A stretch of DNA of 64,000 nucleotides from Natronomonas marina (GTDB lineage Archaea > Halobacteriota > Halobacteria > Halobacteriales > Haloarculaceae). The notes below the pieces were generated by a model. The model made no database searches, was not told the DNA's origin, and worked only from the letters and a program-made list of their open reading frames with translations. The position numbers and the translations under genes were made by a program. The stretch lies in NCBI RefSeq assembly GCF_024298905.1, contig NZ_CP101154.1, positions 3,038,001 through 3,102,000 on the forward strand, in the 5' to 3' direction. How positions within the stretch are numbered: position 1 is the stretch's first letter; each line of letters opens with the position of its first letter. This document shows, one piece after another, positions 43,014 through 55,001 of this stretch.

Positions 43014-43037
43014 GCGGGTCGCTTCGGCACAAGTACG

Positions 43038-43263
43038 TCACGTCGTCGATGCACCCCAGACGACGTCGACGTCGCCCTGCGACGGCTCTCCCGTCCGTAT
43101 CCGTACCGCCTCGACGACGAGATACGTTCGAGTGGCGTCGACGACGTGCGCGTACGTTCCCGGCTCCGTCGAGTTGATCCAGTACTGCCGCGGCCGGTCG
43201 GCCAGGCCGTGGGTGATCGAGTCGCCGTCGCCGACGGTCGTTCGACCGCCGTTTTCGGTCCGG
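43038..43263 (-). pseudogene. Beta-helix protein gene, 3' fragment cut off by IS66
   Basis: Minus-strand coding sequence ending in TGA at 43038. It continues exactly in frame from the 5' part when the IS and one 8-bp target repeat are removed: GYRTENGGRTTVGDGDSITH through QYWINSTEPGTYAHVVDATR to VVWGASTT. The tail looks like a beta-strand module after the helix. Together the two parts give a 466-residue protein. Confidence 0.85.
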
Positions 43264-44868
43264 GTACGTGTTTAGCCCCGATGAATTTCGCCACTATCTC
43301 GTAACAGGCGACCAATCGGGGGGATATGCACCCTCAGCAAGGGCTAATTGAATTTCTCCAGGGATGGTCTCCGCTCGGAGACCATCCCGGTGACCCTGCT
43401 GAGGTAACGCTGAGGTGGTCATAGTGGAGTGGGATGACCTCAGCAAAGACGAACTTCTCTCACGGTTTCTCCAGATGGAAGAGCGAATTGACGAGCTGGA
43501 GGAGAAACTTGAGCAAAAGGACGAACGGATCGAAGAGCAGCAAGAGCGAATCGAAGAACTCGAAACACGGCTTCGCAAATACGAGAATCCACATACACCG
43601 CCGAGTAAGCGACGGTCGGGGACTGACGAGTCCCCGACCTCGCAAGATGACGAAGACGACGATGTTAGAACTGATGGCGGCGCTCCCGGACGAAAGGACG
43701 GTCACGACCCGGAGTGGCGCTCTACGGCTGATCCGGACGAAGAAGTTGAGGTTACCTGTGACTGCTGTCCAGAGTGTGGCCAACACTTCGACGAGTCGGT
43801 GGGCGTCAGCCCCCGACTCGTCGAGGAGATACCGGACCCACAGCCACCAGAAGTCACGCAATACAACCGCCACTGCTACCAGTGCGACTCCTGTGGGACT
43901 GAGACAGTCGCTACACACCCCGACTGCCCCGATGAGGGGCAGTTCGGGGTGAACGTTATCGCCCAATCTGCACTGTCGAGGTACGATTACCGCCTCCCCT
44001 ATCGGAAGATTGCAGACCGTTTCGAGCAGCTACATGAACTGGAGTTGTCGGGCGCGTCCGCATGGCACGCGACCGAGCGCGCTGCGCGCGCCGGTCGCTG
44101 TGAATACGAGCAGATCCGCCGCCAGATCTGGCAGGCCGACGTTGTCCACATCGACGAAACAGGCATCAAGCGGGATGGTGAGCAAGCATGGATCTGGACG
44201 TTCACCACCGAGAACCACACGCTCTACGCTGTTAGAGAGAGTCGTGGAAGCGATGTTCCCGCGGAAGTCCTCGGCGAGGACTTCGCGGGAACGGTCATCT
44301 GTGATGGGTGGACGGCCTATCCGGCCTTCAGCGACAATCTACAGCGGTGTTGGGCTCATATTCTGCGGGAGGCTAAAGATGCCGCCGAGAAGCACCCCGA
44401 AGGCAAACCGATCTACGAGTCTCTCAAGCAGTTGTACGTCGCTCTCCAGACGCGGCTGGAGAGCGACTTGTCCATTCGTGAGCGAGCAGAGCTCCAGTGT
44501 GTTGCACGAAGAGAGCTTGAATCGCTGATTGAGCGGTCAGTTCCCGACGGACCAGTGGCAACACTGCTCGGAAAGATCGAAGGTGGCCTCGACCACTGGC
44601 TCACCTTCGTCGGTGAGCCAGCGGTCTCTCCGACCAACAATGCCGCCGAAAACGCGCTCCGTGAACCAGTGGTTCTCCGGAAACTTATCGGAACACTCCG
44701 CAACGACCGCGGGATGTTCGTTCATGAGACGGTGCTGTCCCTGCTGGCGACGTGGCGCCAGCAGGGACGCAATCCCTACGACGAACTCAAGCGAGTCTCT
44801 CGAAACAACGAGATGGTTTCACGAGATCAGGCTGTGCCGGTCGTTGAGTCATCGGGCTAAACACGTAC
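43264..44868 (+). mobile_element. IS66-family insertion sequence, 1605 bp
   Basis: Ends begin GTACGTGTTTAGCCC on both sides (left at 43264, right end read inward from 44868), with one base difference soon after. The 8-bp CGGTCCGG occurs directly at 43256-43263 and 44869-44876 as target duplication, the size IS66 elements make. It lies inside a beta-helix protein gene and is oriented against it. Confidence 0.95.
43415..44860 (+). CDS. IS66-family transposase
   Basis: A 481-residue protein, start taken at GTG 43415. Residues about 10-60 are a coiled coil (ELEEKLEQKDERIEEQQERI), then a zinc-binding part with CDCCPECGQHF and CYQCDSCG, then the DDE domain with Asp/Glu in ADVVHIDETGIKRDG, Asp in TVICDGWTAYPAF, and Glu in SPTNNAAENALREPVVLRK. 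Complete and uninterrupted. The helper orfs tnpA/tnpB of bacterial IS66 are absent, as in archaeal members. Confidence 0.95.
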   Translation: MVIVEWDDLSKDELLSRFLQMEERIDELEEKLEQKDERIEEQQERIEELETRLRKYENPHTPPSKRRSGTDESPTSQDDEDDDVRTDGGAPGRKDGHDPEWRSTADPDEEVEVTCDCCPECGQHFDESVGVSPRLVEEIPDPQPPEVTQYNRHCYQCDSCGTETVATHPDCPDEGQFGVNVIAQSALSRYDYRLPYRKIADRFEQLHELELSGASAWHATERAARAGRCEYEQIRRQIWQADVVHIDETGIKRDGEQAWIWTFTTENHTLYAVRESRGSDVPAEVLGEDFAGTVICDGWTAYPAFSDNLQRCWAHILREAKDAAEKHPEGKPIYESLKQLYVALQTRLESDLSIRERAELQCVARRELESLIERSVPDGPVATLLGKIEGGLDHWLTFVGEPAVSPTNNAAENALREPVVLRKLIGTLRNDRGMFVHETVLSLLATWRQQGRNPYDELKRVSRNNEMVSRDQAVPVVESSG

Positions 44869-46051
44869 CGGTCCGGTATCCCCGATTGAACCGGTACGTG
44901 GACCCGGTCGACCGTGACGGCCGGTCGACGGCCGCGGCGGCGTTGCCGTGAAGGAGGTTGAACGAGATCAGGTTGTCACGACTGTCCGACGTTTCGACGA
45001 GGCCGTGTCCTTGCGTACGGTCGTAATCGTCGTCGTTGAGCAGTGCGGACTCGACGACCCTACTGCGGTGTGCCCCGTCGAGGACGACCCCGCTGTAGGA
45101 ACCGGGGTCGTCGCGCGAATTGTTGGCGACGAACGCGTTCCGGAGGGTGACCCGGTCGCCCTTGATCAGCACGCCGTGTCGCCGGTTGCGCTCGCTGTGG
45201 GCCCCTACGAGCGTGGCGTCCTTCGCGCTCTCTATCATTCGGATACCTGCCTCGCCCCTCGTGTCGTACGCGTGGGGGTGGATCAGCGTCCCGCCGGCGT
45301 CCGCCATCGTGAACCCGTAGCTCTCGCAGCTTTCGGCGTACAGGTTCACGCCGAACAGGTCCCCGGTGTACCCGAAGACGAACCCGTCGCCGGCACAGCG
45401 TGCCACGTCGACGTCCGTGAGCGTCGGTTCGTAGGAGTACTCCCCGTTGGGCCCGCCCTCGAACCGGACGCCGTCGCCCGCTCCGTTCCGGACGACGAGG
45501 TGTTCGACGACCGGTCGCCATGTGTACCCGACCACGACCAGACAGTCCCCCCGCTCGTTGCCGGACCGGTTGCCGTCGATCCGGAGGTCGGAAACGCGGA
45601 CGTGTTCGGCACCCGACGGGATCGTCAGGAGGTCCGCGTTCAGCCCGTCGGCAGCACGGAGGGTCGTCGCGGGGCCGCTTCCGGCGACCCACGTCGCCCC
45701 CGCCAGCGTCACCGGCCGATCGAGCTCGTAGGTTCCCGGTGCGACTTCGATGGCGGTGCCCGTTCCGGTCGCCTCACCGGCGTCGATCGCGTACTGGATG
45801 GCGTCGCTGCCGGAGCCACCGAACGCGGGATCGTCGGTCCCCCGTCGGAAGACGTACGACGTTCCGTCGTCCCGGGTGACGAGGAAATCGGCGCCGGTCG
45901 GTTTCACGGTCCCTCTCATCGACGCCCTCCACTCGGGTTCCTCGTCCGTCCGGAGGGATCGGGCGCCCCGCCCGACCGGGAGGACGCCGATTCCGGCGGC
46001 GACCGCTCGGAGCGTCGCTCGTCGCCGACGGTCGATACCCTCTCGAACCAT
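44869..46051 (-). pseudogene. Secreted right-handed beta-helix (pectate lyase/epimerase-like) protein gene, 5' fragment
   Basis: From ATG at 46051: a Tat-like N-terminus (IDRRRRATLRAVAAG), then a pectin-lyase-type beta helix from about residue 70: GSGSDAIQYAIDAGE, GTAIEVAPGTYELDRPVTL, followed by repeated strands around LLTIPSGAEHVRVSDLRIDG, VVRNGAGDGVRFEGG, NAFVANNSRDDPGSYSGVVL. Such folds cut or epimerise acidic polysaccharides. The IS66 insertion replaces the last 75 residues by CLAR. Next to a processive glycosyltransferase gene. Confidence 0.87.
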
Positions 46052-46182
46052 GTGGTCTGTCCGGTGTCGTACCGTTCGACCGGGGGTACCGTGGTTCTAC
46101 CGGCGACCGGTCCGCTCGGGTCCCGCCATCCGTGCCGATCGGGTCGTTTCCGACCGATCCGGTGTCCGAGCGCGCGCATGTC

Positions 46183-47337
46183 TCACTTGTCGATGACGAC
46201 GAACTCGCTGTCGCGGGTCCAGAGCGCATACAGGGGCACGACGTGTTCGAGCGTCGCGTAGACCGGCGTGAGTAGCAGCAGGCCCGCGCCTTCGAGACCG
46301 CCGACTCGCCGTGCGCCCAGTCCGATGGTGCTGACGTAGATGAGACTGCCCGCCGCGAGCAGGCCGACGACCCACGTCGGAAACGCGAGCCCGTACCCGA
46401 GGAGCCACAGCGGGAGGAACACCCAGCTGGACGCGACGGCGACGGTCCAGGTAAGGATGCGAGCACCGACGACGACCCGGCTCGCGACCGGTGCCTTCGG
46501 GAGGTACCGGGCGATACCGAGATACCAGCGCGACCGTTGCTTCAGGAACGACGTGACGTCGTGCGGGCTGAGAATGCTCACGCGGGTCGCGCTCTGCCAG
46601 ACCGGGACGTCCCGTTTCACCAACTCGAGCGCGAAGGCGAAGTCCTCGACGATCGTCTCCCGATCGAAGCCGATCTCCGCGAGGACGTCGCCGCGGGCAC
46701 AGAGCAACTCGCCGTGGAACCCGAGGTAGGGTTTTCCGAGGACGCCGGTGAACAGACGGTAGATGGACAGGTCGTCGACGAAGCGGATGTGGTCGGCCAT
46801 GAACGTCGTCACCGACCGGCCCCGGCGCGGGAGGAGAACGGGGTTCATCGCCCGGTAGCCGCGCTCCTCGTAGTGGGGAATCTCGTAGAGGAACGCGTCG
46901 TCGAGGACGCGGTTGTCGTCGTCGATGAACCCGTACCAGTACGACGGTGCCTCGGCGACGACCGTCTCGATGAAGTAGTTGATGGCCCGTCCCTTGGCGA
47001 CCGCCTCGCAGTCGTACGACTCCGGCACGACGACGGTCGTGACGTCGTCGCGGTCGAGGAGTTCGGCCTGGAGATCGCTCCCCTCGTCGAGGACGCAGAA
47101 GATCTCACAGTCGGAGAACCTCGCGGTGGTGTGGTCCAGCGTCTCGCGAAGCGCGGTGGCGACGTGGGCGGCGGCGACCGTCGTGATCACGAGCCGTACG
47201 TTCTCGGCTCGCTCGCCGCTCCGCTCCGGCTCGTAGCGAACCGACAGGAGCAGACCGGTGCCCATCATCAGCGTGAAGACGAGGCCGACGAAGGCACCGA
47301 GTATCCGGATTAGCGTGACGAGTTCGGACCAGATCAT
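46183..47337 (-). CDS. Membrane glycosyltransferase, family 2 (processive polysaccharide synthase-like)
   Basis: A 384-residue protein from ATG at 47337. One N-terminal hydrophobic segment (about 8-32), a cytoplasmic GT2 domain with GFIDDDNRVLDD (metal-binding DDD), ETIVEDFAFALELVKR (acceptor-side ED), and LKQRSRWYLG, the Q-x-x-R-W mark of processive enzymes such as cellulose and hyaluronan synthases; then three or four membrane segments (about 285-345). It would build and export a surface polysaccharide. Confidence 0.85.
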   Translation of the reverse strand: MIWSELVTLIRILGAFVGLVFTLMMGTGLLLSVRYEPERSGERAENVRLVITTVAAAHVATALRETLDHTTARFSDCEIFCVLDEGSDLQAELLDRDDVTTVVVPESYDCEAVAKGRAINYFIETVVAEAPSYWYGFIDDDNRVLDDAFLYEIPHYEERGYRAMNPVLLPRRGRSVTTFMADHIRFVDDLSIYRLFTGVLGKPYLGFHGELLCARGDVLAEIGFDRETIVEDFAFALELVKRDVPVWQSATRVSILSPHDVTSFLKQRSRWYLGIARYLPKAPVASRVVVGARILTWTVAVASSWVFLPLWLLGYGLAFPTWVVGLLAAGSLIYVSTIGLGARRVGGLEGAGLLLLTPVYATLEHVVPLYALWTRDSEFVVIDK

Positions 47338-47433
47338 CTTTGAATCGAGATTTCGTGTGGGGTGGTAGGGTTCCGGGTGTCTCCGACCGAATCGAGCGGT
47401 CGCGGGGGAACCGGGGCGACGTTCGACAGGGAA

Positions 47434-50400
47434 TCAGGCCCCGATGCCGTACTTGTCCTGCAGGTACTGCTCGACCTGCTGGCGTTCGGTGTCGGTCAGC
47501 GCGCGGTCGTAGACCACGACCTCGGCGACCTCCATGTCGACCAGTGGGCTCCCGTCGAGTTCGGCGCCGACGACGATCTTCTGCGGGTCGGTGTCGTAGG
47601 TGTGGGTGAACTGGTCGATCTGGGTGCCGTTCTTGTAGTGGGTGACCTGGTCCGAGGCCAGAACCGCCGACTGGGTCAGCCAGGTGTCGGAACCAACGTC
47701 GGCGGAGGCGGGCGCGGTGAAGTCCTCGCACCAGCCCTGCACCTGCAGGCTGCTGTCGTGGACGATGAGGCCGAAGGCGTTGTTGCAGGCCGCCGCGCCG
47801 TAGGCGACACCGCCGCCCCAGTCCGGCGAGCTCTGGTAGTTCACGACGTACATGATCGTCCGGCTGTCGTTCCCCGACGGGAGGCCAGTCAGCGTGTCCG
47901 TCCGCTGGAGCAGGTCGTCGGTGCCGTCCAGACTGACCATCGGTTCCCCGTTCGGACCGTCAGTGACGAGCGTCGGATCGCCCGACGCCGTGAGGTCGTT
48001 GCCCTGCCCGGACTGGTCGGCCCAGCCCGTGACGTTGTCGCCGCTCGTCGTCACGCCCTGCCCGGCGTCGAAGTGCGTGACCAGCCCGCTCGTCACCGGA
48101 AGCGACGAGGTGGTGGGCTGGTTCACAGTGATCGAGACGGTGGCGGTGTCGGTCGCGCCGTCGTCGTCCGCCACCGAGTAGGTGAAGCTGTCCGACGCCG
48201 AGTCGGAGCCGCCGTGGGTGTAGGTGATCGCGCCGGTCGAATCGTCGACCGAAACCGTCCCGTTCGACGGCCCGCTCGTGACCTGAACGGACGAGGCGTT
48301 CAGGCTGCCGTCGCTGTCGGTGTCGTTGGCGAGGACGTCCACGACGACGGACTGTCCGGCGTCGACCGTTGCCGAGTCGTCGCTGGCCGTCGGCGCCGTG
48401 TTGGCTGCGCTGATCGAGACGGTGACGGTCGCCTCGTTGGACGTGGCGCCGTCGTCGTCGTCGACGGTGTACGTGAACGTCGCGTCACCGCTGGCGCCCG
48501 AGGGGGTGTCGTAGGTGATCGTGCCATCGGGGTTGGCCGTGGCCGTGCCGGTCGCCGGCCCGCTCGTGACCTGGACGGACGAGGCGTTCAGCGAGCCGTC
48601 GCTGTCGGTGTCGTTGGCGAGGACGTCGATAGTGGTCGACTGCCCCGCCGTCACGCTCGCGGCGTCGTCGCTGGCGGTCGGGGCTACGTTCGAGGTGCCA
48701 GTGGTGTCGAGGTACTTCTGCTGGAAGTACGCCTCGACTTGCTGGCGCTCCGAATCGGAGAGTGCGCGGTCGTAGACGAGAACGGCGGCGACCTCCATGT
48801 CGTTGTAGCCGGCGCCGGAGATTTCCTCGCCCACGATGAACTTCGCTTGGGCGTCGTCGGGGTCCGTCTCGTAGGTGTGGGTGCCGCTGTCGATCTGGGT
48901 GCCGTTCTTGTAGTGGGTGACCTGATCGTCGGCGACGGTGGCCGACTGGACCAGCCAGCCGGCGCCGGTGCCCTGGGTGGCCGAGGTGATGTCGGTGAAG
49001 TACCCGGTCACGTCCAGCAGGCCGGAGTCCTCCTGGACGATGAGGCCGAAGGCCTCGTTGGGATTCGCGGCGCCGAACGCTGCTCCGGCCCACTCGTTGG
49101 CGTTCTGATACTCGGTGACGACGAACATCGTCCGGTTCTGGCTACCCGACGGGAGCCCCGACAGGGCATCAGTCCGCTCGAGTTTGTCGCCGTCGCCGTC
49201 GAGACTGATAACCGGTTGCCCGTTCGGACCGTCAGTGACGAGCGTCGGATCGCCCGACGCCGTGAGGTCGTTGCCCTGCCCGGACTGGTCGGCCCAGCCC
49301 GTGACGTTGTCGCCGCTCGTCGTCACGCCCTGTCCGGCTTCGAGGTGGGTGACAAGGCCGCTCGTCACCGGCAGCGACGAGTCCGGGGGCTGGGTGACGG
49401 TGACGGTCACCGTGGCGGTGTCCGTCGCGCCGTCGTCGTCGGCGACCGTGTAGGTGAACGTCACGTCACCACTCGCGCCCGAGGGTGCACTGTAGGAGAT
49501 CGTGCCGTCCGGGTTGACCGAAACCGTCCCGTTCGACGGCCCGCTCGCGATCGAGACCGACGAGGCGTTCAGCGAGCCGTCGCTGTCGGTGTCGTTGGCG
49601 AGGACGTCGATGGTGGTCGACTCACCCGCCGTGACGGTCGCGGCGTCGTCGCTGGCCGTCGGCGGCTGGTTTACCGCTCCCGTCGCGTCGGTCGTGAACG
49701 TTTCCTCGCTGCCGGCGGTCCACTTGCCGTCGTCGCTCTCGGCGTACGCCTGGAAGACGTAGGTCGTCTCGGAATCGAGCCCGGTCACGTCCGCACCGAA
49801 CTGGCCGGGACTGCTCAGCGAGGAGCCGGTCCACCAGGTCAGCGTCGAGCCCTTCTGGCCCTGTTTCCAGTACTGGAAGTAGACCGTCGCGTTGTCGCGG
49901 TCGCCGAGCCCCGTGAGGTTGCCCTGCAACGTCGCCGAGTCCGCATCGACGTTCGTCGCCGACTCGGTCGCGACGCCGTACGGCTGCCCGGACTGGGTGG
50001 TGAACGTCTCCGCGGGGCCGGCCTTCCACTCGCCCTCGTTGCTCTGGCCGAACGCCCGGTACTCGTAGGTCGTCCCGGGCTCGAGACCGACCTCGGTGCT
50101 GAACGCGCCGGGCGAGTCCTGCACCGGACCGGTGTACCAGGTCAGCGTCGAGTCCTTCTGTCCCTGCTTCCAGTAGGTGAAGTACACCTGGGCGTCGGCG
50201 TTGTCGCCGAGGTTGACGATCTCGCCGTTCAGCGTCGCGGACTCGACACCCACGTCGCTCGCGCCGGTACTGTCGACCCCGAAGTACTGGCCCGTCGGGG
50301 TGGTGAACGTCTTCTCCTCGCCAGCCTTCCACGCGCCGTCGCCGCTCTGGGCGAGCGTCTGCCAGACGTAGGTGGTGCTCGGGCTCAACACGACGTCGAA

Positions 50401-53400
50401 CTGGAATCCACCGGACTGGGTCGTCGGCGCGCCCGTGTACCAGAAGGCGTCCTCCGGCTGTCCCTCCGGCCAGATCTTGACGTACGGCGTCGCCTCCTGT
50501 TTGTCACCCAGCGTGAGCGTGCCGTCGAGAGTCGCCGAGGCGTTGGTCGCCGTCGAGGTATCGATGACGACGTTCGTCGCCTGGCCCGTCGACGTGCCGT
50601 AGGTGCCGGTTCCGGTGTCCGCGCTGATCGAGACGGTGACGGTCGCCTCGTTCGAGGTGGCGCCGTCGTCGTCGTCGACCGTGTAGCCGAACGTGACGTC
50701 ACCGCTGGCACCCGAGGGCGCGCTGTAGGTGATGTTGCCGTCGGGGTTGGCCGTGGCCGTGCCGGTCGCGGGCCCGCTCGTGACCTGGACGGACGAGGCG
50801 TTCAGGCTACCATCGCTGTCGGTGTCGTTGGCGAGCACGTCGATGGTCGTCGATTGCCCCGCCGTGACGCTTCCCGAGTCGTCGCTCGCGGTCGGGGCCG
50901 CGTTCGCGGTGAAGTACGTCTGCTCGAAGTAGGTCTCGACCTGCTGGCGTTCGGTGTCGGTCAGCGCGCGGTCGTAGACCACGACCTCGGCGACCTCCAT
51001 GTCGACGTAGGGGTCCTCGTCGAGTTCGGCGCCGACGACGATCTTCTGGGGGTCGGTGTCGTAGGTGTGGGTGAACTGGTCGATCTGGGTGCCGTTCTTG
51101 TAGTGGGTGACCTGGTCGCCGGAGAGAACCGCCGAGTGGGTCAGCCAGTCTCCCGAACCGACCTCGGCGGAGGCGGGTGCGGTGAAGTCCTCGCACCAGC
51201 CCTGCACCTGCAGGCTGCTGTCGTGGACGATGAGGCCGAAGGCGTCGTTGCAGACCGTCGCCCCGTAGGCGACACCGCCGCCCCAGTCCGGCGAGCTCTG
51301 GTAGTCGACGACGTATATGATCGTCCGGTCGTCGTTCCCCGACGGGAGGCCGTTCAGCGCCGCCGTCCGGACGAGCGCGTCGCCGTCGCCGTCGAAGCTG
51401 ATCACCTGATTCCCGGCGAGCGTGTCGTGTTTGACCAGCGGGTCGCCGGTGGCGGTGAGGTCGTTACCCTGACCGGACTGGTCGGCCCAGCCCGTGACCA
51501 CGTCGCCGGTCCCGACGCTGACGCCCTGGTCGGCCGCGTAGTGCGTCACGAGGCCGCTCGTCACCGGCAGCGACGAGCCGCCCGTGTCCGTCCCCTGGTC
51601 GATCGACACCGTGACCGTCGCGGCGTCACCGGCGCCCTGGTCGTCGCTGACCTGGTAGACGAACGTATCCGACGTCGTGTCCGACCCGTCGTGGGCGTAC
51701 GTGATCGAGCCGTCGGGGTTCACCGTCGCGGTGCCGTGGGCGGGGCCCTGATCGATGGTGACCGTCGAGGCGTCGAGGCTGCCGTCCGGGTCGTCGTCGT
51801 TGGCAAGCACGTCGATCGTCGTCGAGGATCCAGCCGTCACCGAGGCCGAGTCGTCGACGGCCGTCGGGTTCTGGTTGGTCGCTTCCTGGGAGAGGTACTT
51901 CTGCTGGAAGTACGCCTCGACTTGCTGGCGCTCCGAATCGGAGAGTGCGCGGTCGTAGACGAGGACGGCGGCGACCTCCATGTCGTTGTAGCCGGCGCCG
52001 GAGATTTCCTCGCCCACGATGAACTTCGCTTGGGCGTCGTCGGGGTCCGTCTCGTAGGTGTGGGTGCCGTTGTCGATCTGGGTGCCGTTCTTGTAGTGGG
52101 TGACCTGATCGTCGGCGACGGTGGCCGACTGGACCAGCCAGCCGGCGCCGGTGCCCTGGGTGTCCGAGGTGATGTCGGTGAAGTACCCGGTCACGTCCAG
52201 CAGGCCGGAGTCCTCCTGGACGATGAGGCCGAAGGCCTCGTTGGGATTCGCGGCGCCGAATGCTGCTCCGGCCCACTCGTTGGCGTTCTGATACTCGGTG
52301 ACGACGAACATCGTCCGGTTCTGGCTACCCGACGGGAGCCCCGACAGGGCATCAGTCCGCTCGAGTTTGTCGCCGTCGCCGTCGAGACTGATAACCGGTT
52401 GCCCGCTCGGCGCGGTGGCCGTCGTCGGATCACCGACCGCCGCGAGGTCGTTGCCCTGCCCGGACTGGTCGGCCCAGCCCGTGACCTGCCCGCCGCTCGT
52501 CGTCACGCCCTGGTCGGCCTCGAACTGCGCGACGAGGCCGTCCGTGACGGGGGCCGAGCACTCGCCGACGTCCTGGTAGTTCGCGGTGAGCGTGGCGTCG
52601 GATGTCGGGACCGTGTACGTGTGCGTCTGTGCACCACCGTCCGACCAGCCCTGGAACTCGTACTCGCGGCCGTTCAGGCACTGTGTCGTCGGGGCGCTCA
52701 CCTCGTGTTCGAAGCCGACCAGCGTGTCGATGACGGCCCCGTCGTTCACCGGGAGCCCATCGACGCTCAGCTCGAGACCACCGGGGTCCGTCGCGAACGT
52801 GATGTCGACCTTGTCGGGTTCGATGGTGACCGAATCCGACGCCGAGAGCCCGTCGGAGTCGGTCGCGGTGACCGTCAGCGTGTAGCTGGTGTCGGTCGAG
52901 TAGCCGTGCCCCGACGCGGGCACGTCGAAGGAGCCGCTCTCGCCCGTGTAATCGGAGAGAACGGGATGCGTGTGTGCGGCCCCCTCCGGCGGGTCGTGAT
53001 CGAAGACGACGTCCCAGGTGAACGCGTCACTGCTCAGGGTGCCGTCCTGCGGGTCGGTGCCGCTGGCGTTGAACTCGATCGTGTCGCCCGCCTGGAAGAG
53101 GCTTCCGTCGGCCGGCGAGTCGATCGTCACCGAGGGCGGTTCGCCGATCGTGATCTCGATCGGCTGGGACTCGACCGTCTGCGTGCCGTCACTCACCTCG
53201 ACGTACGCCGTGTAGGTGCCGGCGCTCTGGTAGGTGTGGCTCGGCGAGGCGCCCGAGGCCGTCGATCCGTCGCCGAACGTCCAGTTGTAGGTGAGCGAGT
53301 CCTGGTCGGGGTCGCTGGCCGAGACGCTGAAGTCGACCGTCTGTGGCGCGCTCGCCGCCGACGTGGGTGTCGCCGAGACGGAGTCGATGCTCGGGGCCTG

Positions 53401-54693
53401 GTTGCCCGTGTAGGTGACCTCGTGGATCGTCCCGTCGCTGATGCTCGTCCAGTAGAGCGACCCGTCGGGACCGACGGAGATGGCGTTGACGTTGTTTGCG
53501 CTGTCCTCGAACATCTCGACGCTCTGGACGTCGCCGTTCGAGTCGAACGTCAGGTACTTGATCCAGTCCTTCGCGTAGTCGCCGAAGAAGTACGCGCCCT
53601 GGTACTCGTCGGGGAACTGCTGGCCGCGGTACACCTCGCCGCCCGTGATCGAGTTCCCCTCGCTGTGCGGGTACGAGTAGACCGGCGCCGTCTGACTGAC
53701 GTCGCAGGGTGCGTCCTCGTTCGACTTCGAGGTGCCCTCACAGTCGGGCCACCCGTAGTTGGCGGCCGGGTTGTCGAGCGTGGCGACGTTCACCTCCTCG
53801 TAGTCGGGGGCGCTGTTGCCGCCGACGTCGCCGAAGAAGAACCGACCGCTCTGCAGGTCCCACTCCGCCCGGAACGGGTTGCGGACCCCGTAGGCCCAGA
53901 TCTCGCCGAGCGTGTTCGGGTCGCCGTCGTCGACGTACGGGTTGTCCTGGGGGATGGTCCCGTCCTTGTTGACGCGGATGACCTTCCCGCTGGCCCGGCT
54001 CAGGTCCTGGGAGACGGCGCCGCCCTGGAAGTCGTCGCCCGTGGTGAGCCAGAGCTTCCCATCGGGACCGAAGTCCAGCCCGGCGCCCTGGTGACAGCAG
54101 CTCTGCCACTGTTCGTCCTCCTTCCAGACGACGAACTCGCTCGAGGCGTCAGCAGTGCTCTGCAGGCCCCCGCCGTTCTCCTGGTGGGTGAACCGGGCGA
54201 TGCGGTTCGTATCCTCCGCGTCGTTCGAGTAGAACACGTAGACGTAGCCGTTCTGCTCGAAGTTCGGGTCGAGCGCGATGTCGATGAGCCCACGCTCGCT
54301 CCCGTCGTTGACCTTCCCGGTGATGTCCAGGTACGTGCTCGTGTCCTTCGTCCCGTCGCCCGGGTCGGTGATCTCGATCGTCCCCGGTTTCTCGAGGAGC
54401 AGCATCCGGCCGTCGGGGAGGAACGTCATCCCCATCGGCTGATTGACGCCCGAGAGGAACGTCGAGCTCGAGAAGTTCGACGGCTGCACTGCCGCGGTCG
54501 AGACCGTGCCGGTGGACTCGGCGGATGTTTCCAGTGACGAGGCAGCCGAGTGGTCGACGTCACCCCCGTCGGTCGACCCCGCGGCGAGGCCCACGGGCGC
54601 GACGACCATCGACAGGGCAGTCACGACCGCCAGACAGACCGCCAGTAGTTTCGTCCCGTTCCCCGCACTCGTTCCGCGCTTCCATAGTGCCAT
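47434..54693 (-). CDS. Giant secreted modular protein: sorbosone-dehydrogenase-like, PKD, LamG and cadherin-like repeats
   Basis: A 2419-residue protein with a Sec-type signal (about 1-38, TKLLAVCLAVVTALSMVVAP). About 50-430: PQQ sugar/sorbosone dehydrogenase-like propeller (GVNQPMGMTFLPDGRMLLLE, GAGLDFGPDGKLWLTTGDD). About 431-518: PKD (YNWTFGDGSTASG). About 519-708: Ig-like and a Cys-containing module. Then four LamG-like domains (about 709-940, 1044-1258, 1771-1998, 2196-2419; each GWADQSGQGNDL to YDRALSDSERQQVE), five cadherin-like/Big_9 repeats (VLANDTDSDGSLNASS) and three FN3-like repeats (about 1361-1668). No membrane anchor or sorting signal at the end. Likely a cell-surface or matrix sugar-binding protein. 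Confidence 0.85.
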   Translation of the reverse strand: MALWKRGTSAGNGTKLLAVCLAVVTALSMVVAPVGLAAGSTDGGDVDHSAASSLETSAESTGTVSTAAVQPSNFSSSTFLSGVNQPMGMTFLPDGRMLLLEKPGTIEITDPGDGTKDTSTYLDITGKVNDGSERGLIDIALDPNFEQNGYVYVFYSNDAEDTNRIARFTHQENGGGLQSTADASSEFVVWKEDEQWQSCCHQGAGLDFGPDGKLWLTTGDDFQGGAVSQDLSRASGKVIRVNKDGTIPQDNPYVDDGDPNTLGEIWAYGVRNPFRAEWDLQSGRFFFGDVGGNSAPDYEEVNVATLDNPAANYGWPDCEGTSKSNEDAPCDVSQTAPVYSYPHSEGNSITGGEVYRGQQFPDEYQGAYFFGDYAKDWIKYLTFDSNGDVQSVEMFEDSANNVNAISVGPDGSLYWTSISDGTIHEVTYTGNQAPSIDSVSATPTSAASAPQTVDFSVSASDPDQDSLTYNWTFGDGSTASGASPSHTYQSAGTYTAYVEVSDGTQTVESQPIEITIGEPPSVTIDSPADGSLFQAGDTIEFNASGTDPQDGTLSSDAFTWDVVFDHDPPEGAAHTHPVLSDYTGESGSFDVPASGHGYSTDTSYTLTVTATDSDGLSASDSVTIEPDKVDITFATDPGGLELSVDGLPVNDGAVIDTLVGFEHEVSAPTTQCLNGREYEFQGWSDGGAQTHTYTVPTSDATLTANYQDVGECSAPVTDGLVAQFEADQGVTTSGGQVTGWADQSGQGNDLAAVGDPTTATAPSGQPVISLDGDGDKLERTDALSGLPSGSQNRTMFVVTEYQNANEWAGAAFGAANPNEAFGLIVQEDSGLLDVTGYFTDITSDTQGTGAGWLVQSATVADDQVTHYKNGTQIDNGTHTYETDPDDAQAKFIVGEEISGAGYNDMEVAAVLVYDRALSDSERQQVEAYFQQKYLSQEATNQNPTAVDDSASVTAGSSTTIDVLANDDDPDGSLDASTVTIDQGPAHGTATVNPDGSITYAHDGSDTTSDTFVYQVSDDQGAGDAATVTVSIDQGTDTGGSSLPVTSGLVTHYAADQGVSVGTGDVVTGWADQSGQGNDLTATGDPLVKHDTLAGNQVISFDGDGDALVRTAALNGLPSGNDDRTIIYVVDYQSSPDWGGGVAYGATVCNDAFGLIVHDSSLQVQGWCEDFTAPASAEVGSGDWLTHSAVLSGDQVTHYKNGTQIDQFTHTYDTDPQKIVVGAELDEDPYVDMEVAEVVVYDRALTDTERQQVETYFEQTYFTANAAPTASDDSGSVTAGQSTTIDVLANDTDSDGSLNASSVQVTSGPATGTATANPDGNITYSAPSGASGDVTFGYTVDDDDGATSNEATVTVSISADTGTGTYGTSTGQATNVVIDTSTATNASATLDGTLTLGDKQEATPYVKIWPEGQPEDAFWYTGAPTTQSGGFQFDVVLSPSTTYVWQTLAQSGDGAWKAGEEKTFTTPTGQYFGVDSTGASDVGVESATLNGEIVNLGDNADAQVYFTYWKQGQKDSTLTWYTGPVQDSPGAFSTEVGLEPGTTYEYRAFGQSNEGEWKAGPAETFTTQSGQPYGVATESATNVDADSATLQGNLTGLGDRDNATVYFQYWKQGQKGSTLTWWTGSSLSSPGQFGADVTGLDSETTYVFQAYAESDDGKWTAGSEETFTTDATGAVNQPPTASDDAATVTAGESTTIDVLANDTDSDGSLNASSVSIASGPSNGTVSVNPDGTISYSAPSGASGDVTFTYTVADDDGATDTATVTVTVTQPPDSSLPVTSGLVTHLEAGQGVTTSGDNVTGWADQSGQGNDLTASGDPTLVTDGPNGQPVISLDGDGDKLERTDALSGLPSGSQNRTMFVVTEYQNANEWAGAAFGAANPNEAFGLIVQEDSGLLDVTGYFTDITSATQGTGAGWLVQSATVADDQVTHYKNGTQIDSGTHTYETDPDDAQAKFIVGEEISGAGYNDMEVAAVLVYDRALSDSERQQVEAYFQQKYLDTTGTSNVAPTASDDAASVTAGQSTTIDVLANDTDSDGSLNASSVQVTSGPATGTATANPDGTITYDTPSGASGDATFTYTVDDDDGATSNEATVTVSISAANTAPTASDDSATVDAGQSVVVDVLANDTDSDGSLNASSVQVTSGPSNGTVSVDDSTGAITYTHGGSDSASDSFTYSVADDDGATDTATVSITVNQPTTSSLPVTSGLVTHFDAGQGVTTSGDNVTGWADQSGQGNDLTASGDPTLVTDGPNGEPMVSLDGTDDLLQRTDTLTGLPSGNDSRTIMYVVNYQSSPDWGGGVAYGAAACNNAFGLIVHDSSLQVQGWCEDFTAPASADVGSDTWLTQSAVLASDQVTHYKNGTQIDQFTHTYDTDPQKIVVGAELDGSPLVDMEVAEVVVYDRALTDTERQQVEQYLQDKYGIGA
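48711..49222. repeat. 512-bp near-identical repeat, copy 1 (LamG unit 3)
   Basis: Aligns without gaps to 51894-52405 (offset 3183) with about five base differences. It encodes most of a LamG-like domain. The rest of the gene's repeats are more diverged, so this block was recently duplicated or homogenised by gene conversion. Confidence 0.88.
51894..52405. repeat. 512-bp near-identical repeat, copy 2 (LamG unit 1)
   Basis: Partner of 48711-49222. Differences seen are single bases such as guanine for adenine in the YDRALS region and NGT for SGT coding. A second pair, LamG units 2 and 4 (about 50935-51350 and 47470-47885, offset 3465), is also very alike. Confidence 0.88.
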
Positions 54694-54733
54694 TGCGATG
54701 GGACAACACTCAGGGAGATGGGACTTTGTTAAT

Positions 54734-54746
54734 AGTCTAATAGACT
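54734..54746. promoter_or_regulatory. Palindrome upstream of the giant gene
   Basis: AGTCT-aat-AGACT lies 40 bp upstream of the ATG at 54693, next to a TTAAC-type TATA candidate. It is followed by a further CTCT-cgtt-AGAG repeat. Possible operator; untested. Confidence 0.3.
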
Positions 54747-54800
54747 CTCGTTAGAGACGTTGTATTTTTTCTAGTCCAGTTGCCTACCTGTTAAAATTCC

Positions 54801-54866
54801 TGTATTTCGCCGCGCTGCAGCGGCTTTTTTTGTTACTGGCTCTATATTCCGCCGCGCTGCACCGGC
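54801..54866 (+). repeat. Tandem GC-rich hairpins, the first followed by seven T
   Basis: GCCGCGCTGCA occurs at 54809-54819 and 54851-54861, 42 bp apart. The first forms GCCGC-gctgca-GCGGC and is followed directly by TTTTTTT (54825-54831), resembling a rightward terminator; the second is weaker (GCCG...CGGC). Otherwise the 308-bp gap 54694-55001 holds only AT-rich sequence and no gene. Confidence 0.45.
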
Positions 54867-55001
54867 GAATCCGTTAGAAGTCCTATATCGCGTTAAAACG
54901 CTGCTAACACGGCGGACAGCCCGGTATCGGTGAGCGGTGTAGCGAGCGGACGCTCACACCTTCGGGGGGGTGAGCGACTCAGGGTCACTCCCCCTCCCGC
55001 C

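Follow-up and report, generated by a model that had tools for sequence, protein, structure and literature searches.

Several described systems resemble the gene analyzed here. Periscope Proteins (Whelan et al. 2021, PMC8201768) are exported, consist of repeated folded domains with high DNA identity, and are prone to intragenic recombination. Concerted evolution by gene conversion, which leaves copies within a genome more alike than those between species, has been reported for prokaryotes (PMC6053082, PMC4632066), and segmental gene conversion reportedly alters an exposed protein, MgPa, in Mycoplasma genitalium (PMC2169797). Likewise, gene conversion is described as very efficient among the chromosome copies of Haloferax volcanii (PMC8223754). 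Here we report on a 64,000-nt stretch of the Natronomonas marina genome (the window), in which a single gene probably encodes an exported, GSDH-headed rod with four LamG modules that would have been multiplied by duplication and would exchange segments by intragenic gene conversion, a reading that we hold with good confidence.

The features of the locus are collected in Table 1. From its signal-like start, the protein proceeds through the GSDH head, PKD, and an Ig-like part to U1, C1, U2, C2, the Fn3-like repeats, C3, U3, C4, C5, and U4, where it ends. Pfam identifies the GSDH head, PKD domains, six Big_9 and five Cadherin_4 stretches, and four Laminin_G_3 stretches (PF13385, 40.7 bits against a cut-off of 27.6). 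The protein also belongs to the NCBIfam tandem-95 repeat family NF012211 (217.5 bits, cut-off 90), and for TIGR03606 (non_repeat_PQQ) it scores 84.8 bits, below the curated cut-off of 434.55. All four units (47446-52551) have the same 36-nt run in the DQVTHYKNGTQID stretch, amid widely different surroundings. The long ORF that covers the gene on the plus strand is presumably a shadow of the GC-rich coding sequence.

Table 1. Features of the giant gene and of the block that contains it (window coordinates).
Feature	Position	Strand	Basis or remark
Giant exported protein ORF	47434..54693	minus	2419 aa, ATG start, no inner stop; signal-like N-terminus by eye only
GSDH (glucose/sorbosone dehydrogenase-like) head, aa 84-417	53443..54444	minus	Pfam PF07995, E 5.6e-60, 203.8 bits vs cut-off 25
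PKD domain, aa 432-515	53149..53400	minus	PF18911, E 1.7e-18
LamG unit U1 (type A)	51892..52551	minus	Sequence comparison
510-nt U1 stretch common to U3, likely donor	51892..52401	minus	4 differences; direction inferred from flanks
Cadherin-like domain C1, after U1	51568..51876	minus	Pfam and unit comparison
LamG unit U2 (type B)	50911..51567	minus	Sequence comparison
Cadherin-like domain C2, after U2	50629..50904	minus	87.7% nt identity with C4
Fn3-like repeats between C2 and C3, three by eye	49690..50622	minus	Self-match aa 1432-1566 / 1533-1668, 72%; weak Pfam fn3, E 0.0054
Cadherin-like domain C3, before U3	49372..49671	minus	Pfam and unit comparison
LamG unit U3, mosaic	48709..49371	minus	Breakpoint tests
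114 nt of U3 identical to U4	49219..49332	minus	Sequence comparison
U1-type 510 nt of U3, ending where the LamG unit ends	48709..49218	minus	Sequence comparison
Cadherin-like domain C4, after U3	48403..48690	minus	63.5% nt identity to C1, 87.7% to C2
Cadherin-like domain C5, before U4	48100..48402	minus	73% nt identity to C3
LamG unit U4 (type B core)	47446..48099	minus	Sequence comparison and fold model
12-kb block missing at the corresponding site in G006, G009, and G012	43015..54989		Locus comparison

Comparison of the four units confirms that U3 is a mosaic of a U4-like start and a U1-type remainder. Overall nucleotide identity is highest between U1 and U3 (627/660, 0.95) and between U2 and U4 (550/654, 0.84), the latter in agreement with the likeness of this pair proposed in an initial annotation; the other four pairs range from 0.71 to 0.76. 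The 36 aligned positions that differ between U1 and U3 are distributed unevenly, with 31 no later than column 146. The final 510 nt of each unit, from column 156 on, contain only 4 differences, 2 of them synonymous, and a fifth lies at column 151, which bears out the earlier estimate of 512 bp with about five changes. Counted by codon, the first 48 codons contain 6 synonymous and 12 nonsynonymous changes and the remaining 172 contain 2 and 3, respectively; the identity breaks off at the final codons of the unit. U3 and U4, for their part, differ at 6 sites in the first 39 columns and then share 114 identical nucleotides (columns 39-155; window 49332-49219 in U3 with 48060-47947 in U4), followed by strong divergence. 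The match that had been placed between the start of unit 3 (about 49200-49370) and unit 4 (about 47945-48110) is therefore real.

The first quarter of U3 is thus U4-like, and the switch to the U1-like tract takes place within 5 nt. Among the informative sites, U3 agrees with U4 and not U1 at 28 and with U1 and not U4 at 174; the best breakpoint falls between columns 151 and 156, and few single sites depart from this pattern of partners (U4 up to column 151, U1 from column 156). The maximum chi-square is 185.6, against 31.9 for the largest permuted value, and none of 10,000 permutations of site order reaches the observed score. Sites that divide the four units two and two tell the same story: the 6 that favor U1U2|U3U4 all lie before column 150, and the 111 that favor U1U3|U2U4 all lie later (0/5,000 permutations). 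These tests substantiate the earlier proposal that recombination within the gene produced the patchwork.

Full-length relatives of the protein and unit matches were absent from all 19 other genomes of the genus. Of 146 genomes of the family, those passing were our own, G143, and, with a weak partial match, G131; a sample of the class (391 genomes) yielded 8 passing genomes including our own, and the family of G400 (170 genomes) yielded 6, these sets overlapping. Four units are found in the window gene, G143, and G400, and one in the proteins of G408, G315, G237, and Haloferax larsenii; G273 carries several genes. A profile search of the genome itself recovered only the four units and no further LamG copies. 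Scanning genome contigs with the whole protein returned no relative in a set from which near genomes may be missing, and the unit alignment found five distant bacterial loci there (27-30% identity). Six loci came from viral contigs, four of them matching just 28 to 37 residues, and the best plasmid match was that of Haloferax larsenii. The species is sampled by one genome, and these contig, viral, and plasmid scans revealed no locus shown to be a strain of it. None of the window neighbors tested lies beside the relatives' genes in ten loci (L045, L059-L065, L075, and L076). In the literature on haloarchaeal or archaeal LamG, domain repeats, and gene conversion, as represented by titles and abstract openings, the protein is not described, which does not prove its absence.

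A tree of 20 units, which leaves out the weak or partial LamG matches in G065, G131, and G457 and the Haloferax larsenii unit, groups units mostly by genome, as expected of concerted evolution. The four window units fall together (100/98), with U1 and U3 (100/100) and U2 and U4 (100/99) as pairs, and the same holds for U2-U4 of G143 (100/100) and U1-U4 of G400 (95/94). The exceptions are U1 of G143 and the units of the separate G273 genes, which stand apart from the rest of their own genomes. Mosaic signals are weaker in G400 and G143 (62/5,000 and 87/5,000 permutations reach the observed score), and the G273 pair gives none (356/5,000). In G143 (L045:5709-12656), U1 precedes the dehydrogenase head, following a Pro/Thr/Ser repeat region, which implies that LamG modules move within the protein. 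The G273 gene pieces at L062 and L060 lie on different contigs (C2 and C8), share an exact 69-aa overlap in protein, and include one that ends in a run of N. They may represent one gene split by an assembly gap, although they were retained as separate rows. Such repeats can break assemblies, as seems to have happened here, and unit counts from draft genomes may therefore be too low.

The gene lies in a block that differs among relatives. A Thi4 match was present in 16 other members of the genus, and the six that were compared were chosen for having Nre near Thi4 on the same contig. In G009, G012, and G006, Nre and Thi4 are ordered as here, and positions ~43015-54989 correspond to about 1.1, 0.7, and 0.2 kb, respectively; the area in G002, G003, and G016 has undergone rearrangement and does not contain the giant gene. 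The site between Nre and Thi4 is perhaps a hotspot for change. The 12-kb block contains an IS66-family transposase gene, a NosD/beta-helix-like gene, a family-2 glycosyltransferase gene, and the giant gene, and since it is missing from the site in three relatives and includes an IS66 element, the giant gene was probably acquired. The IS66-family element (43263-44869) appears whole: its 481-aa transposase is enclosed by perfect inverted repeats of 16 bp, and its GC3 is 0.65, whereas genes outside the block have about 0.9. GGTCCG occurs on both of its outer flanks, possibly as part of a target duplication. The NosD/beta-helix-like ORF (44849-46051) stops within the right inverted repeat, and the insertion therefore probably truncated or changed its 3' end.

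How the mosaic arose can be judged from the domains that flank the units. An uneven selective constraint along the unit could mimic likeness without any recombination, and parts such as the DQVTHYKNGTQID stretch are indeed alike in all four units. What refutes this reading, which we regard as having almost no chance of being correct, is the single point at which U3 exchanges U4 for U1 as its closest match, at synonymous sites as well, together with a breakpoint score that none of the permutations attained. In another scenario, units of the U4 and U1 types would have misaligned, and an unequal crossover would have fused U3 and changed the unit number simultaneously; unit number does vary between species, and a breakpoint within a unit is the trace expected of such an event. 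However, a single crossover predicts a U4 flank upstream and a U1 flank downstream of U3, whereas identity is only 73% (C3-C5) and 63.5% (C1-C4), against 99% within the tract, which makes this origin unlikely. Since C4 is unlike C1 and C3 is unlike C5, the U1-type tract has both of its ends at U3, and non-reciprocal gene conversion with two tract ends fits better than a single unequal crossover does. The surroundings of U3 look derived from U2 (C4 is 88% like C2), which makes U1 the more probable donor. The tract is short (510 nt) compared with the several-kb tracts reported between Haloferax volcanii chromosome copies (PMC8223754), but homology here itself drops at the unit edge. Duplication of a U1-U2 block to give U3-U4 was also considered and rejected as the whole story, as U1-U3 identity is 95% against 84% for U2-U4 and the linkers mispair relative to its prediction (C1-C5 61.7%, C2-C4 87.7%).

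The origin of the two core types invites further alternatives. In the unit core (protein alignment columns 75-175), A and B share 0.37-0.52 identity, while the best values for other species are 0.50-0.56. Because A-B cores are no closer than cores between genera, the split could be old or one core could be foreign, that is, transferred from another species and then spread within the gene. The absence of the 12-kb block with its IS66 element from the site in three relatives speaks for a foreign core; against it stand the failure to find a closer donor, the grouping of the four window units (100/98), and a GC3 of the gene (0.927) that resembles that of neighbors outside the block (0.90-0.93), so that we consider such a transfer improbable. 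Nor do we favor, giving it slim prospects, the view that positive selection for new binding acts on the units as a diversity-generating set. Simple NG86 counting places dN above dS in the A-B core, and omega there is 0.29-0.38, while within-genome pairs of G143, G400, and G273 have core values of 0.01-0.08. A codon model that includes base composition (F3x4) nevertheless removed the NG86 signal, giving omega below 1 everywhere, and the deviation of the A-B core from omega = 1 is downward (2dlnL 5.3-8.8). The excess in the NG86 counts would be an effect of the GC3 of 0.93, at which synonymous differences saturate early; simple dN/dS counts mislead in GC-rich haloarchaea. The A-B core thus evolves under less constraint here, and positive selection between unit types is unsupported once codon bias is modeled.

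Under the gene-conversion reading, an ancestral protein with a single LamG module would have gained further modules by duplication in this lineage, and module gain in other lineages may have been separate or followed by homogenization. Copies within the gene would then swap segments through ectopic homologous recombination, mostly as non-reciprocal gene conversion; in U3, with its U2-like setting and a start common to U4, U1-type sequence would have taken the place of the last 510 nt. The LamG modules may bind several glycan sites at once, and replacing the body of a unit could alter what that position binds. From one genome of the species, the ongoing recombination and the size and binding variation proposed in the initial annotation are conjectural.

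The architecture itself is shared more widely. The initial annotation had described a sugar-dehydrogenase head on an adhesin-like tail as unusual, a description that does not hold: the same order (dehydrogenase, PKD, a further Ig-like part, LamG) occurs in other haloarchaea, including Haloferax larsenii, and the arrangement of residues 65-778 is also found in bacteria such as Skermanella. By family match, the head is of the GSDH type and predicted to be sugar-dehydrogenase-like, and its relatives with solved structures include 2ism, 3a9g, 7cdy, and 2g8s. A histidine before GxxxxFGPDGxLxxTTG, with a putative catalytic role, aligns with 2ism and 3a9g. No pqqE match exceeded the cut-off in the genome, nor in any of 14 controls (0/14), so this search says little.

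An AlphaFold2 model of U4, built with 8 further alignment rows, has a mean pLDDT of 74.2 and a pTM of 0.79, and is poor in the variable core, where residues 91-106 and 113-136 fall under pLDDT 50. Its structural matches are ConA-like domains, as expected of a LamG / ConA-like beta-sandwich: a trypanosomal sialidase lectin-like domain at the top (Z 16.5, rmsd 2.8, 179 aligned), a GH54 arabinofuranosidase (Z 16.3, rmsd 3.0, 199 aligned), and domain 4 of AbnA (5hon; Z 15.2, rmsd 2.8, 169 aligned). Glycan binding by the LamG units is plausible from this predicted fold. Clostridial neurotoxin binding domains also rank high in the fold search, but a common beta-sandwich is uninformative on function and a relation to toxins was discarded.

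The end of the protein bears on where it is located. A PGF motif followed by a hydrophobic stretch and basic residues ends the proteins of G408, G315, G237, and Haloferax larsenii and G273a1; PGF-CTERM is an archaeosortase signal. This tail is absent from the C-termini of the window protein, G143, G400, and the single-unit G273b; G273c has a run of N, and G273a2, whose start is cut by a contig edge, ends without it. The window protein stops at its last LamG unit, and its last 60 aa contain neither a PGF motif nor a hydrophobic tail (maximum mean hydropathy 0.91 against 2.1-3.0 in five relatives). The cell-surface location assigned earlier is accordingly doubtful, given the tail seen in the five single-unit relatives, and secretion is probable, with binding accounting for any retention of the protein. 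The tail is present in 5 of the 6 single-unit relatives whose C-terminus could be read and in 0 of the 3 four-unit proteins, a link between unit number and anchor loss that is only a lead because the numbers are small and G315, G237, and Haloferax larsenii are close kin. A broader scenario would make the shuffling self-contained, with LamG modules as mutual donors and recipients, old A and B cores kept apart while ends are homogenized, LamG multiplication accompanying loss of the PGF anchor, multivalent glycan binding replacing anchoring, and conversion swapping the binding type by position; we regard this combination as speculative and not likely.

Compared with known proteins, the closest in layout is that of Haloferax larsenii (WP_258303835.1, plasmid pHl5678-2, annotated "PQQ-dependent sugar dehydrogenase"), which has GSDH, PKD, Ig-like part, and LamG in the same order and 47% identity over query residues 68-960. 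It differs in its length of 1299 aa, its one LamG unit, its PGF-type C-terminal tail, and its lack of repeated units. This single-unit gene (L075:7932-11831) lies on the plasmid among glycosyltransferase, sulfatase, and pilin genes. MgPa of Mycoplasma genitalium reportedly varies by means of donor copies located elsewhere in the genome; unlike such donor-cassette antigenic variation, the window genome holds no donor copies outside the gene in our profile search. Periscope Proteins (PMC8201768) reportedly form a tandem rod of one domain in near-identical copies and carry a C-terminal surface attachment motif, whereas the window units are interspersed with other domains and no anchor was found. 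Of the window units, U1 and U3 alone are near-identical (95%). The cases of concerted evolution cited above (PMC6053082, PMC4632066) concern separate paralogous genes, while ours concerns domains inside one gene.

The locus offers a readable example of conversion between domains of one archaeal gene, in which a likely donor, the recipient, and both tract ends can be named and species compared; its host belongs to a group known for efficient gene conversion between chromosome copies. Types A and B provide a natural module pair for asking whether conversion alters binding. Set beside these systems, it is a well-supported case of intragenic conversion in a haloarchaeal exported protein and belongs to a kind of gene evolution that is already known.
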